Shown here piece after piece: positions 1,160 through 5,252 of a stretch of DNA of 5,252 bases (positions are counted from its first letter, which is position 1; the number at the start of each line of letters is the position of its first letter). Both the position numbers and the translations under genes were made by a program. The stretch is from contig CAMYWI010000122.1 of assembly GCA_947302675.1 (NCBI GenBank), forward strand, positions 1 through 5,252. Direction: 5' to 3'. This DNA is from an uncultured Selenomonadales bacterium. Its GTDB lineage: Bacteria; Bacillota_C; Negativicutes; Selenomonadales; Selenomonadaceae. The notes below the pieces were generated by a model. It was not told where the DNA came from. It ran no database searches and saw only the letters and a list, made by a program, of their open reading frames with translations.

Positions 1160-2482
1160 TTGAACAGGTGGAATACGGCGGACACGACGTTACTTTGTGC
1201 CGCGCTGTTTTTTTTAATGGCGGTCGGATTGCGAATCACATTCCCCGAAAATATTTTGGCGGAAGGATTTTTATTCGTGACGGAGGCGGCACTTGTCGGC
1301 GGAATAGCGGACTGGTTCGCGGTCACGGCGTTATTCAAAAAGCCGCTGGGCTTTCCGTTCCACACGGCGATTTTGCCGCGCAGGCGAAAAGATTTCGTCA
1401 AAGCGTCGGTGGTCATGGTTCAGCAGGAATTTTTTTCGCGGCGGACGATTTTTAAAAAGCTCGGCGACTTCAAGCTCCTGCCGCGCATTGTCGACTTCCT
1501 CGCCAAAGATTCAACGCGCGAGCTGATTCTCAAAGACCTTTTTAACGTCGTGAAAAAATTCGTCGCGTCGCAAAACAAGGAATTGCGAGCGAAGGCGATA
1601 GCAAACGAACTGCGCCGAATCATTCGCGACATTCCCGCGCAGGGGCTGATTAACGACTTCGGGGCGCAATTCAAACGCGGCGACAAGGACAGAGAAATTT
1701 TTATCAGCATAGTCAAGGCGATTCGCAAGACCGCCGCCAAGCCCGAAACTTGCGACAAACTTCAAGCGATTTTAGAAGAGTACGCGAACGAGAAGACTAA
1801 AAATATGGGCGGCTTTTCGATTTTAATGGCGGGACTTGCGCAAATGCTTGACCTTGTGAACTTCGAGGAGGCGGCGCGAATCATGCAAACGCAACTGCTC
1901 AAGCTCCTTGACGAACTCGCGCGAGATACGCAACTGCACCGGCGCACGCTAAACGAATGCCGCTTAAAAATTTCTGAGCTGAGCGACACGCCAGAATTTA
2001 AAGACTTAGTCGAGCGGATACAAATCGACGCGGCGACGGAGTTGCCGTTGGAAGAGGCAATCGAACTCGCGCTGATTCACATAGAAAATCAAATCGCGAT
2101 GACAAACTTCGACGAGTCGCTAAAGAAGGCGCAAAAGAATTCAAAGCACGACGGCAAAAGTTTAGGCGCGTTATTGGTCAACACGTTCAACGAGGAGTAC
2201 GACAGATTCTTGCGGCTCATCAAAGAGGACACGGCGGCGCGGCAAGCCTTTGAAAAATTCGTGGACGAGTTGACGGCGCGAGCGGCACTTCACGCACAAC
2301 CGCTTGTCGGCACGGTCGCGAGGTCGGCACTCGACAAACTGACGGAAGAGCAACTGAACAACTTGGTTTACGACAAGGCGGAGCAAGATTTTATCTGGAT
2401 AAGATTAAACGGCTCAATCGTCGGCTCGGCGGTCGGATTGGCGATTTTTATTTTGATAAAAGCGGCGGGGTTAAGCGTATGA
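1160..2482 (+). CDS. DUF445 family membrane protein, downstream paralogue (full length)
   Basis: This is a complete 440-residue DUF445 (YjiN-like) protein, a normal length for the family, whose biochemical role is not established. A hydrophobic segment at about residues 10-24 is followed by a second at about 36-59 carrying the family motif GGIADWFAVTALF (47-59). The conserved HTAILPRRRKD stretch is at 68-78. A long charged helical region fills about 90-405. The C-terminus has IRLNGSIVGSAVG (414-426) and a final membrane helix. The predicted layout is therefore membrane-anchored at both ends with a long helical body between. Translation starts at TTG 1160 behind an AAGGGG site. The stop overlaps the murI start (ATGA), which implies coupling. 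It shares motifs with the gene just upstream but is clearly diverged from it, so the duplication looks old. Confidence 0.9.
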   Translation: MNRWNTADTTLLCAALFFLMAVGLRITFPENILAEGFLFVTEAALVGGIADWFAVTALFKKPLGFPFHTAILPRRRKDFVKASVVMVQQEFFSRRTIFKKLGDFKLLPRIVDFLAKDSTRELILKDLFNVVKKFVASQNKELRAKAIANELRRIIRDIPAQGLINDFGAQFKRGDKDREIFISIVKAIRKTAAKPETCDKLQAILEEYANEKTKNMGGFSILMAGLAQMLDLVNFEEAARIMQTQLLKLLDELARDTQLHRRTLNECRLKISELSDTPEFKDLVERIQIDAATELPLEEAIELALIHIENQIAMTNFDESLKKAQKNSKHDGKSLGALLVNTFNEEYDRFLRLIKEDTAARQAFEKFVDELTARAALHAQPLVGTVARSALDKLTEEQLNNLVYDKAEQDFIWIRLNGSIVGSAVGLAIFILIKAAGLSV

Positions 2483-3258
2483 AGATTGCGTTCTTTGATT
2501 CGGGGATTGGCGGCTTATCGGTTCTGCACCACGCGCTGAAAATTTTGCCGCAGGAAGAATTTATTTTCTACGCGGACGAAGATAACGTTCCCTACGGCAC
2601 GAAGTCGCGCGAAGAAGTCTTGGGCTTTGTCGACGAGGCGTTTCAATTTTTAATCGCGCAGGGTATCGGGGCAATCGTCGTGGCTTGCAATACGGCGACA
2701 TCGGTCGCGGTCAAAGCAATGCGCGAAAAATATTCATTGCCGATAATCGGCATGGAGCCGGCGTTGAAAGTCGCGTTGGATTTATTTCCCGACAGAAAAG
2801 TTTTGGTGACGGCGACGGCGATAACAATCACGGGGCAAAAAATTCAGCGACTGGTAAAAAAACTCCGCGCGGAAAATTTGGCGGAGCTTAGGGCGTTGCC
2901 GCGACTGGTTGAATTTGCGGAGCGGCAGGAGTTCAACTCGGCGGCTGTCGAAGAATATCTGCGCGGCGAACTGAATTATGACTGGGGAAAATTTTCGTCA
3001 CTGGTCTTGGGTTGCACACACTTTAATTACTTCAAGGACACACTGAGAAAAATTTTGCCGGCGCACGTGAAAATCTTAGACGGGAACGCGGGCACGGTCA
3101 ACGAGTTGATAAGGCGGGCGAATTTAAAAACTGCGCGGGCAGAAAATCTTCCGAAGATAAAATTTTATTATTCGGGGCGGCGCGTGAAAGATTTAAGAGA
3201 ACTCGCGCGGCTTGGAAAATTTTTACAGCGACTCGACGAAATGGAGGCGATTACATGA
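2479..3258 (+). CDS. murI: Glutamate racemase
   Basis: MurI interconverts L- and D-glutamate without a cofactor, supplying D-Glu for the peptidoglycan precursor UDP-MurNAc-L-Ala-D-Glu in the cytoplasm. The 259-residue length is typical. Family landmarks are in order: FDSGIGGLSVL at 6-16 with Asp7 and Ser8, the substrate loop VPYGTKS at 37-43, VACNTATS at 68-75 with the first catalytic Cys70, GMEPALK at 91-97, and GCTHF at 178-182 with the second catalytic Cys179 and His181. Both catalytic cysteines are intact, so the enzyme should be active. Its ATG overlaps the stop of the DUF445 gene (ATGA), with a modest G-rich site (GCGGGG) about 8 nt upstream. Its own stop overlaps the next start in the same way. 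The motif after the second Cys reads HFNYF rather than the more usual HYPLL, an ordinary variation. Confidence 0.96.
   Translation: MKIAFFDSGIGGLSVLHHALKILPQEEFIFYADEDNVPYGTKSREEVLGFVDEAFQFLIAQGIGAIVVACNTATSVAVKAMREKYSLPIIGMEPALKVALDLFPDRKVLVTATAITITGQKIQRLVKKLRAENLAELRALPRLVEFAERQEFNSAAVEEYLRGELNYDWGKFSSLVLGCTHFNYFKDTLRKILPAHVKILDGNAGTVNELIRRANLKTARAENLPKIKFYYSGRRVKDLRELARLGKFLQRLDEMEAIT
3243..3247 (+). promoter_or_regulatory. Shine-Dalgarno site for the HAD phosphatase gene
   Basis: GGAGG lies inside the murI 3' end, 7 nt before the ATG at 3255. This strong site fixes the HAD start upstream of the unusual N-terminal extension. Confidence 0.8.
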
Positions 3259-4013
3259 AAAATTTTAACGAGGCTAGCAATGCGCAGCGTTGCGTACCGG
3301 CGCGGGAGTTACTCCGAACTGTCGAACGGCACGACGCGACCGCTGTTCCGCCGCTTTTAAAGCGGGCGGCGATTTTTGACATGGACGGCACGTTGACCGA
3401 CACGCTCGCCGATTTGCACGACAGCGTTAATGAAATGCTCGACCATTACAACTTCCCGCGCAGGACGCTTGACGAAGTTCGACAATTCGTCGGCAACGGC
3501 GCAAGGAAATTAATGATTCGGAGCTTGCCCGCCGACAAGGAAAATTTTGTTGACGAGGCTTTGGAATTTTATAACGGTTGCTACGCCCGCAACTGCTTGA
3601 AAAAAGTTAAGCCTTACGCGGGGATTATGGACTTGTTGGCGACGTTGGAGGCGAAAAAAATTCCGCTGGGCATTTGCACGAACAAACAGCACTTTGCGGC
3701 GATTGCCATTGCGGAAAAAATCCTCGCGCCGATAAAATTTTCCTACGTCAGCGGCGACGAACCCGGTCAGCCACGCAAGCCAGATCCTACTCGCGCACTG
3801 GCGGGCGCAAAAAAATTCGGCGTCGAACCCGCGCAGGTTGCCTACTTCGGCGACACGGCGGTTGATATTCAAACGGCTCTTAACGCAGGCTTTTTAGCTG
3901 TCGGGGTGACATGGGGCTTTCGCCCGCGCAGTGAGCTTGTCGACAGCGGCGCACAGATTATCATTGACACGCCGCAAGAAATTTTTAGCAAGATTAAATT
4001 CGGAGGTAGTTAA
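3255..4013 (+). CDS. HAD-superfamily hydrolase, phosphoglycolate phosphatase (Gph)-like, with N-terminal extension
   Basis: This is a cytoplasmic Mg2+-dependent phosphatase of HAD subfamily IA. The best guess for substrate is 2-phosphoglycolate, or pyrophosphate as in PpaX. All HAD motifs are present: motif I DMDGT at 42-46 (nucleophile Asp42, acid/base Asp44), a small helical cap at about 53-115 including VGNGARKL, motif II CTNK at 141-144, motif III Lys175 in RKPDP, and motif IV GDTAVD at 199-204 (Asp200, Asp204). The core from residue 38 on is about 215 residues, the usual Gph size. The oddity is residues about 5-37, which precede the first strand, where the family normally has only a few residues. 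No in-frame ATG, GTG or TTG occurs between the start and motif I, so the extension must be translated. The ATG overlaps the murI stop. The substrate cannot be fixed from sequence. Confidence 0.9.
   Translation: MKNFNEASNAQRCVPARELLRTVERHDATAVPPLLKRAAIFDMDGTLTDTLADLHDSVNEMLDHYNFPRRTLDEVRQFVGNGARKLMIRSLPADKENFVDEALEFYNGCYARNCLKKVKPYAGIMDLLATLEAKKIPLGICTNKQHFAAIAIAEKILAPIKFSYVSGDEPGQPRKPDPTRALAGAKKFGVEPAQVAYFGDTAVDIQTALNAGFLAVGVTWGFRPRSELVDSGAQIIIDTPQEIFSKIKFGGS
3270..3365 (+). repeat. Candidate palindromic element inserted in frame in the HAD gene
   Basis: This stretch encodes the extra N-terminal residues of the HAD protein and is packed with inverted repeats. GCAATGC (3277-3283) pairs with GCGTTGC (3287-3293), one G-U pair. 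GGAG (3305-3308) pairs with CTCC (3312-3315). GAACGGC (3324-3330) pairs with GCTGTTC (3342-3348), one G-U pair. CCGCTT (3351-3356) pairs with AAGCGG (3360-3365). The outer limits are approximate, and I see no clear target-site duplication or long terminal repeat. It resembles in concept the in-gene palindromic elements known from Rickettsia (RPE), but no family is recognised. Only one copy lies in this window, so its repeated nature is inferred. Confidence 0.45.
4002..4007 (+). promoter_or_regulatory. Shine-Dalgarno site that decides the YbaK-family start
   Basis: GGAGGT is a near-perfect site 7 nt before a TTG codon at 4015. It favours TTG 4015 over the longer GTG start at 3931, which would overlap the HAD gene by 83 nt. 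Confidence 0.85.
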
Positions 4014-5189: not shown

Positions 5190-5201
5190 TTGCGGCGTTG
5201 C

Positions 5202-5252
5202 GGAGAGTTGTCCGAGCGGCTTAAGGAGCACGACTGGAAATCGTGTGTTGCG
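5202..5252 (+). tRNA. tRNA-Ser (anticodon GGA), 3' end cut by window
   Basis: The 5' acceptor strand GGAGAGT (5202-5208) leads into a serine-type D arm (TCCGAGCGGCTTAAGGAGC region). The anticodon stem is CACGA (5229-5233) pairing with TCGTG (5241-5245), around the loop CTGGAAA with anticodon GGA at 5236-5238. It should decode UCC and UCU. The long variable arm expected of tRNA-Ser begins at 5246 but runs off the window, so the T arm and 3' acceptor strand are not visible. Confidence 0.93.

Follow-up and report, generated by a model that had tools for sequence, protein, structure and literature searches.

Results

An extension at the start of the HAD phosphatase gene

The window, that is, the whole stretch of 5,252 nucleotides analyzed here, contains two DUF445 genes, murI, a HAD phosphatase gene, a gene with an aminoacyl-tRNA editing domain, and a small open reading frame (ORF), as judged from the ORF listing and Pfam; the Pfam search gave no match for the small ORF. 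The forward-strand gene at 2479..3258 (PF01177, E = 4.9e-17), which we take to be murI, encoding glutamate racemase, lies upstream of the HAD phosphatase gene at 3255..4013, also on the forward strand (252 residues; HAD_2, PF13419, E = 1.5e-32). The murI stop codon overlaps the HAD start codon, ATG 3255, within the sequence ATGA. The window had no Rfam match at E ≤ 1. Positions 5200–5252 look by eye like a serine tRNA gene of which only the 5' part lies within the window; ARAGORN reported none.

The HAD protein begins with about 34 extra residues, as the preliminary description of this DNA had claimed. By eye, ATG 3255 is the single in-frame ATG, GTG or TTG ahead of motif I, and the extension is absent from 37 of the 38 readable orthologous loci, being present in L001 (42 loci were compared, and four without a readable N-terminus were left out). 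The relatives used for comparison are MAGs of Selenomonadaceae/Selenomonadales, many of them from ruminant guts and two of them Quinella sp. Most of the empty orthologues begin MK-(T/I)-Y-(K/R)-AAIFDMDGT. In the DNA-level comparison, which covers loci L001–L021, an empty site reads, for example, ATGAAAAAAATTTATCGGGCGGCGATT (L003), whereas the filled site, with 3261–3366 of the window as extra DNA, reads ATGAAAAATTTTAACGAGG-CTAG...TTTTAAAGCGG-GCGGCGATT. Relative to the usual five residues before AAIF, the window has a net gain of 96 nt and L001 one of 99 nt. The copy lacks a target duplication; about 10 nt of the target have been lost and the reading frame is kept. The proposed entry just after the start codon, with both the frame and the two aspartates of motif I preserved, is borne out. 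On the forward strand, the right junction falls between 3366 and 3367 (G|CGGCGATT, in the Ala-Ala codons), as placed by comparing the window with L001 and by the target profile, and it probably represents an insertion site of the preferred |YG type described below.

The body of the HAD protein is under purifying selection (dN 0.106 and dS 0.80 between the window and L001, NG86). In the protein tree, the window and L001 were united in 0% of 200 bootstrap trees, and P0002 is 95% identical to the HAD protein of the window, yet lacks the insert. Two independent insertions at this site are possible, as the protein tree separates the two filled alleles; because these have both their left and their right junctions in common, one insertion followed by allele replacement is also possible. 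Another HAD homologue, P0001, carries a 59-residue internal tandem duplication.

A dispersed repeat family

The HAD segment is one copy of a dispersed repeat of about 105 nt, present in multiple copies in Quinella-like gut Selenomonadaceae. A sequence search with the segment gave matches in 12 of 12 relatives at E ≤ 10 and in 11 of 12 at E ≤ 2.7e-4 (the best match in G005 had E = 0.73), with 54 matches in G001. From 42 full-length copies, six were left out (five with a nested palindrome and one near-duplicate), and the remaining 36 form alignment A1, from which a covariance model was built. At E ≤ 0.001, this model detects the element in 31 of 41 related Selenomonadaceae genomes, G021 alone having at least 97 matches, and the earlier suggestion of a mobile, multi-copy element holds. 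Family-wide, copies were found in 43 of 189 genomes at E ≤ 0.001, under stricter filters and with at most 21 matches scored per genome; class-wide, 25 of 380 genomes have copies at E ≤ 1e-12, all of them within the 43 carriers. In contiguous sequence at E ≤ 0.01, 391 kb of G021 contain 45 matches (one copy, split where two pieces meet, accounts for two of them) and 395 kb of G010 contain 15, which extrapolates, assuming even spread, to about 290 and 95 copies per genome, respectively. Two copies in G001 are 94% alike while their flanks are 41–44% alike, no more than the average pair, which suggests recent movement.

Nearly all copies are intergenic. In the 785 kb from G021 and G010, which have a coding fraction of 0.897 by our own gene calls, none of 40 right ends lies within a predicted gene that extends 60 nt or more to each side. 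This bears on the comparison with Rickettsia RPEs that had been drawn for the HAD segment. As outlined in PMC10969869, RPEs are short palindromic repeats able to sit in frame within genes and lengthen the product, and nearly half of those in R. conorii lie in ORFs. The element shares the short palindromic form, the possibility of in-frame insertion and the lengthened product, but it is nearly all intergenic and many of its copies have long duplications, and a close likeness to RPEs is not supported.

Conserved hairpins

From left to right, the element consists of an AT-rich left end, CTAG, the left hairpin, CGCG, a variable middle, CGCG-N4-CTGTTCC, and the terminal hairpin, all given here on the forward strand. 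The left end (3261..3273), ragged in the family, was placed by the empty-site comparison and the profile, its junction with ATGAAA being uncertain by a few bases. In A1, CTAG (3274..3277) forms the foot of the left hairpin GCAATGC-GCA-GCGTTGC (3277..3293), for which covariation includes compensatory variants such as GAAATGC/GCATTTC. The left CGCG block (3301..3304) is nearly invariant, with one of 36 copies differing at one base, and the right one (3335..3338) is invariant in all 36. The variable middle (3305..3334) lies between them, and a possible third helix spans 3324..3348. Covariation and the junction profile place the terminal hairpin CCGCTTT-T-AAAGCGG at 3351..3365, where it forms the precise end of the element.

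The preliminary description had listed four adjacent hairpins. All four can form in the window sequence, and the family retains them unequally. Over the 36 copies, the left hairpin (3277–3293) is paired in 86% of cells with two-sided changes at 5 of 7 pairs, and the terminal hairpin (3351–3365) in 91% with two-sided changes at 4 of 6, so that covariation among copies does underpin these two. The helix at 3324–3348 is the weaker case, with 80% of cells paired, little covariation and mostly one-sided (GU) changes, and the local hairpin at 3305–3315, paired in 32% of 139 cells in the 35 other copies, is not conserved. Because folding the segment alone gives no greater stability than shuffles of equal composition (z −0.13; 93 of the 200 shuffles were as stable), it is the family, rather than the single sequence, that proves the structure. 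Overall, 90.5% of cells are paired in the model structure and compensatory changes occur at 10 of 18 pairs; none of 500 shuffles reached the observed pairing, compensatory count or covariation score, in a test biased toward the structure, which had been derived from the very alignment tested. The count of pair types was not elevated (184 of 500 shuffles). When the helix partners are slid against each other, only 27–53% of cells remain paired.

The left hairpin has a subfamily with a GAA/GGA mismatch block within the stem. In this subfamily (GCGAAGC/GCGGAGC in A1), the arms have the form GCGNAGC, which we take to be that of the DNA mini-hairpins known for their great stability; the ends of the stem show compensatory changes, which favor one long stem containing the GAA/GGA block. 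Alternative terminal hairpins in the family are GGATGCAACGTCACGTTGC, GGGTCAAGCGTCACGCTTGC, and TTTG-N4-CTTTT..AAAAG-N4. In three copies of the TTTG type (L089, L103, and L121), the right end AAAAGTAGGAGG stands immediately 5' of an ATG, an arrangement in which the terminal arm might act as a ribosome binding site.

Insertion signature

We compared the left and right flanks of each copy for direct repeats (score ≥ 40), with the expectation taken from swapped flanks. In set 1, which is not a random sample because it was chosen by likeness to the window copy, 25 of 113 copies have direct repeats at their flanks, against 0.10 predicted by swapped flanks (of 116 copies, 3 were left out because their flanks were short). 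In set 2, made up of new copies of which 41 of 62 come from G021, repeats flank 22 of the 62, with 0.05 expected (3 of 65 model matches left out). Random pseudo-elements in G021 and G010 had repeats in 21 of 6000 cases, corresponding to about 0.4 and 0.2 expected for sets 1 and 2. Pooled, 47 of 176 distinct copies have a direct repeat and 129 have none at the same threshold; the latter may be old or may have been inserted by another route. The repeats are 24–106 nt long by alignment (median 38), mostly 24–65 nt, and the three that exceed 65 nt are all in tandem arrays.

The element joins its target precisely at the right end, at D|YG, and raggedly at the left. In 28 of the 47 copies, the right repeat copy begins one base inside the model end (offset −1), and among these 28, a few of which are orthologous pairs, the target begins with C or T in 27 and has G as its second base in 20. 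The left end varies across tens of bases among copies, and some copies that lack the left hairpin still carry direct repeats. At the other cut site of the duplicated copies, no strong motif was found. Tandem arrays of duplicated gene end plus element, with a unit of about 133–171 nt, occur in L351 (1125–1513), L275, L127, and L072 and suggest later unequal exchange. The records named throughout are MAGs, so assembly errors are possible.

Empty sites and effects on genes

Two gene ends, that of tatD and that of the nicotinate phosphoribosyltransferase (NAPRTase) gene, the latter named by Pfam, were compared across genomes; a match was counted when it covered at least 70% of the length. Of 25 genomes, 22 have one copy of the duplicated tatD end, and G001, G021, and G007 have 3, 4, and 2 copies, respectively. 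The duplicated end of the NAPRTase gene is single in 20 of 24 genomes, double in G007 and G014, and short or unmatched in two. Between the duplicate ends, the covariance model matches at tatD in G001 and G021 and at the NAPRTase gene in G007 (loci L341, L351, and L316). Inspection by eye revealed a short remnant with a different terminal module between the tatD copies of G007. In G014, also by eye, the end of the NAPRTase gene is duplicated over about 190 nt (L319, 2148–2382), and the two copies have no element between them, an observation that speaks against a strict association of element and duplication.

At groEL, a copy directly follows the stop codon in 7 of 26 loci by eye, two of these copies being divergent (2 of 28 loci without a 3' end were left out). 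Several of the empty groEL sites (L166–L192; for example, in G008 and G023) read TAA-GYCGCTTAA after the gene, with other first bases in G005; this stretch, which resembles one arm of the terminal hairpin, is either an old scar or native sequence. The likeness to this arm, the outer one, suggested guide–target pairing in the style of IS200/IS605. Such pairing does not hold generally, since in most cases the target bases ahead of the duplication lack the hairpin arm, L059 being a partial exception.

Genes at the insertions were assessed for 45 repeat-flanked ends, namely 54 less nine with inserts below 54 nt, which were taken as tandem artefacts. At 35 of the 45 insertions, the duplicated stretch contains a predicted gene start or stop or has one no more than 25 nt away, and one full gene should therefore remain; at nine there is none, and one gene spans the insertion. 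In-frame captures are rare. Nine of the 116 copies in the window-like set 1 were scored as inside a gene, and by eye five copies in three genes look truly in frame; L021, L056, L084, and L117 were rejected, having a better start downstream or a tiny ORF. The captures concern the HAD gene (window and L001), probably an acyltransferase/PGA_cap protein (L088), and an MBL-fold gene. At one site of the last, 8 proteins have 30–40 residues where 112 have 6, among the 120 homologues listed of 336. The MBL inserts L132 (= P0121) and L158 (= P0151) match the covariance model; the others were judged by peptide and fit two kinds of terminal module, and in P0157 the target repeat DNFSD is visible.

Discussion

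Proposed mechanism and significance

We consider it very probable that the segment is a non-autonomous mobile repeat that inserts with a long, variable target duplication by means of an enzyme supplied in trans. What we observe directly is the dispersal in many copies, the sites with and without the element, the covariation of the hairpins, the duplications, the precise right and ragged left ends, and the site preference; to these we add, by inference, the order of the cuts, the fill-in and the enzyme. The terminal-hairpin end would be joined at a target site of the type D|YGNC, the other target strand would be cut, apparently mostly 24–65 nt away, fill-in would duplicate the stretch between the two cuts, and the left end would be joined raggedly or in truncated form, all by an enzyme acting in trans. 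In the HAD event, about 10 nt of target were lost rather than duplicated and the frame was kept by chance, with a net addition of 32 codons after ATG-AAA. An autonomous long partner with the same two ends was looked for in the 785 kb and not found; the one candidate pair, L295, proved on reading its sequences to be two distinct copies whose halves have diverged.

As a rule, small mobile repeats persist only in intergenic DNA. An insertion of the present kind into a gene end leaves a complete gene beside the element because the duplicated stretch is long, so that the element can enter the end of a coding sequence and the complete gene stays. Such gene-sparing duplication would explain how genomes that are about 90% coding carry about a hundred to a few hundred copies. 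The element is also a source of in-frame protein extensions, in HAD, in the MBL-fold protein and probably in an acyltransferase. Its signature sets the tasks of the enzyme, which would have to nick at D|YGNC, join the terminal hairpin, and cut the other strand tens of bases away. To our knowledge, no bacterial transposase class leaves such a signature. With a nick at YG, a second cut mostly 24–65 nt off, and a gene end copied at each insertion, the element might represent a SINE-like or otherwise new class, a suggestion that we put forward tentatively and at somewhat less than even odds.

Alternative explanations

SINE and LINE retroposons have a precise 3' end, a ragged or truncated 5' end, variable-length duplications, and a preferred nick site. 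The element resembles them in its variable-length duplications and in having one precise and one ragged end, but it has a bacterial host and no A-tail. Retroposition proper, in which reverse transcription at a target nick would use an RNA copy with a precise hairpin at its 3' end and give long variable duplications and ragged or truncated 5' ends, would also account for the nick preference, for the duplications around copies without a left hairpin, and for a remnant of about 35 nt with only a terminal module, seen by eye between two tatD ends (L361). We nevertheless regard it as unlikely. RVT_1 is present in just 6 of 20 genomes, among them G024 and G016; by covariance model counts the seven genomes richest in the element are G021, G010, G001, G028, G024, G026, and G007, and a reverse transcriptase was found in the fifth richest, G024, and not in the other six, which as MAGs may be incomplete. 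Moreover, several of the copies without a left hairpin begin near the same NCGCGG, so part of the loss may reflect a short subfamily rather than truncation.

Template switching in replication, or tandem duplication, could instead have captured or copied the element with no dedicated integration enzyme. The tandem arrays of gene end plus element (L127, L072, L275, and L351) and the one duplication without an element (L319) fit this explanation, which is weakened by the right junction lying at the same offset in 28 of 47 copies, by the YG preference, and by the scattering of copies over many loci; we rate it slightly below retroposition.

It is quite improbable that the hairpins constitute a selected RNA device, such as one that couples the translation of murI to that of the HAD gene, or a 3'UTR element. 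Their covariation and the copies right after the groEL stop in 7 of 26 loci (two divergent) would suit such a role, but covariation is equally expected of hairpins needed in transposition, the element is absent from the same site in 19 other groEL loci and in 37 of 38 HAD loci, and between co-directional genes it occurs in both orientations (34 versus 20).

REP/BIME elements, as summarized in PMC3733652, occur in many copies near gene ends, form hairpins, and carry a tetranucleotide at the foot of the hairpin. The element shares all four features, and a (C/N)TAG tetranucleotide at the hairpin foot together with a hairpin at each end could point to a Y1 (RAYT-like) transposase that moves an element of the REP/BIME or IS200/IS605 type. 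This seems very improbable to us. At about 105 nt (104 positions in the model) and with two different hairpins, the element differs from the 20–40-nt imperfect palindrome of a REP, and its tag is CTAG in most copies rather than GTAG or CGTC. Long duplications are not expected of Y1 elements. Furthermore, Y1_Tnp (PF01797), a profile that matched 5 of 14 control genomes, was found in 3 of 41 related genomes (G014, partial; G027; G039), not in the other 38 and in none of the seven richest. Neither a RAYT/Y1 transposase nor a reverse transcriptase is supported as a general resident mobilizer, the RVT_1 matches of G024 and G016 notwithstanding. Y2_Tnp (PF04986), the transposase of IS91-like elements, matched 0 of 20 genomes and none of the control genomes either.

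That the extension is simply an ordinary conserved N-terminal region of a HAD subfamily can be dismissed, since the purifying selection that might speak for it concerns the HAD body rather than the extension, the DNA is multi-copy elsewhere, and the empty alleles at 37 of 38 readable loci refute it.

Relation to other small repeats

Titles and the beginnings of abstracts, with subscription papers outside the scope, contained no description of the element, which is not proof of its being unpublished. In the text of a Quinella genome paper (PMC9585023), the terms transpos-, palindrom-, mobile, and insertion sequence were absent. ERIC/RU elements are outlined in PMC2759123 as mobile repeats of about 100–170 bp, sometimes predicted to be translated within genes. 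The element falls in the same size class and shares the occasional predicted translation within genes.

MITEs of DDE transposons carry inverted repeats at their termini, and their target duplications are short and constant in length. In the element, by contrast, the two ends carry unlike hairpins, as read from A1, and the duplications are long and variable (24–106 nt). A composite form in G021 (family B; loci L293, L281, L286, L294, L282, and L284) has two right-end modules facing outward, often followed by TCTTTG..CAAAGAAAGTAG.
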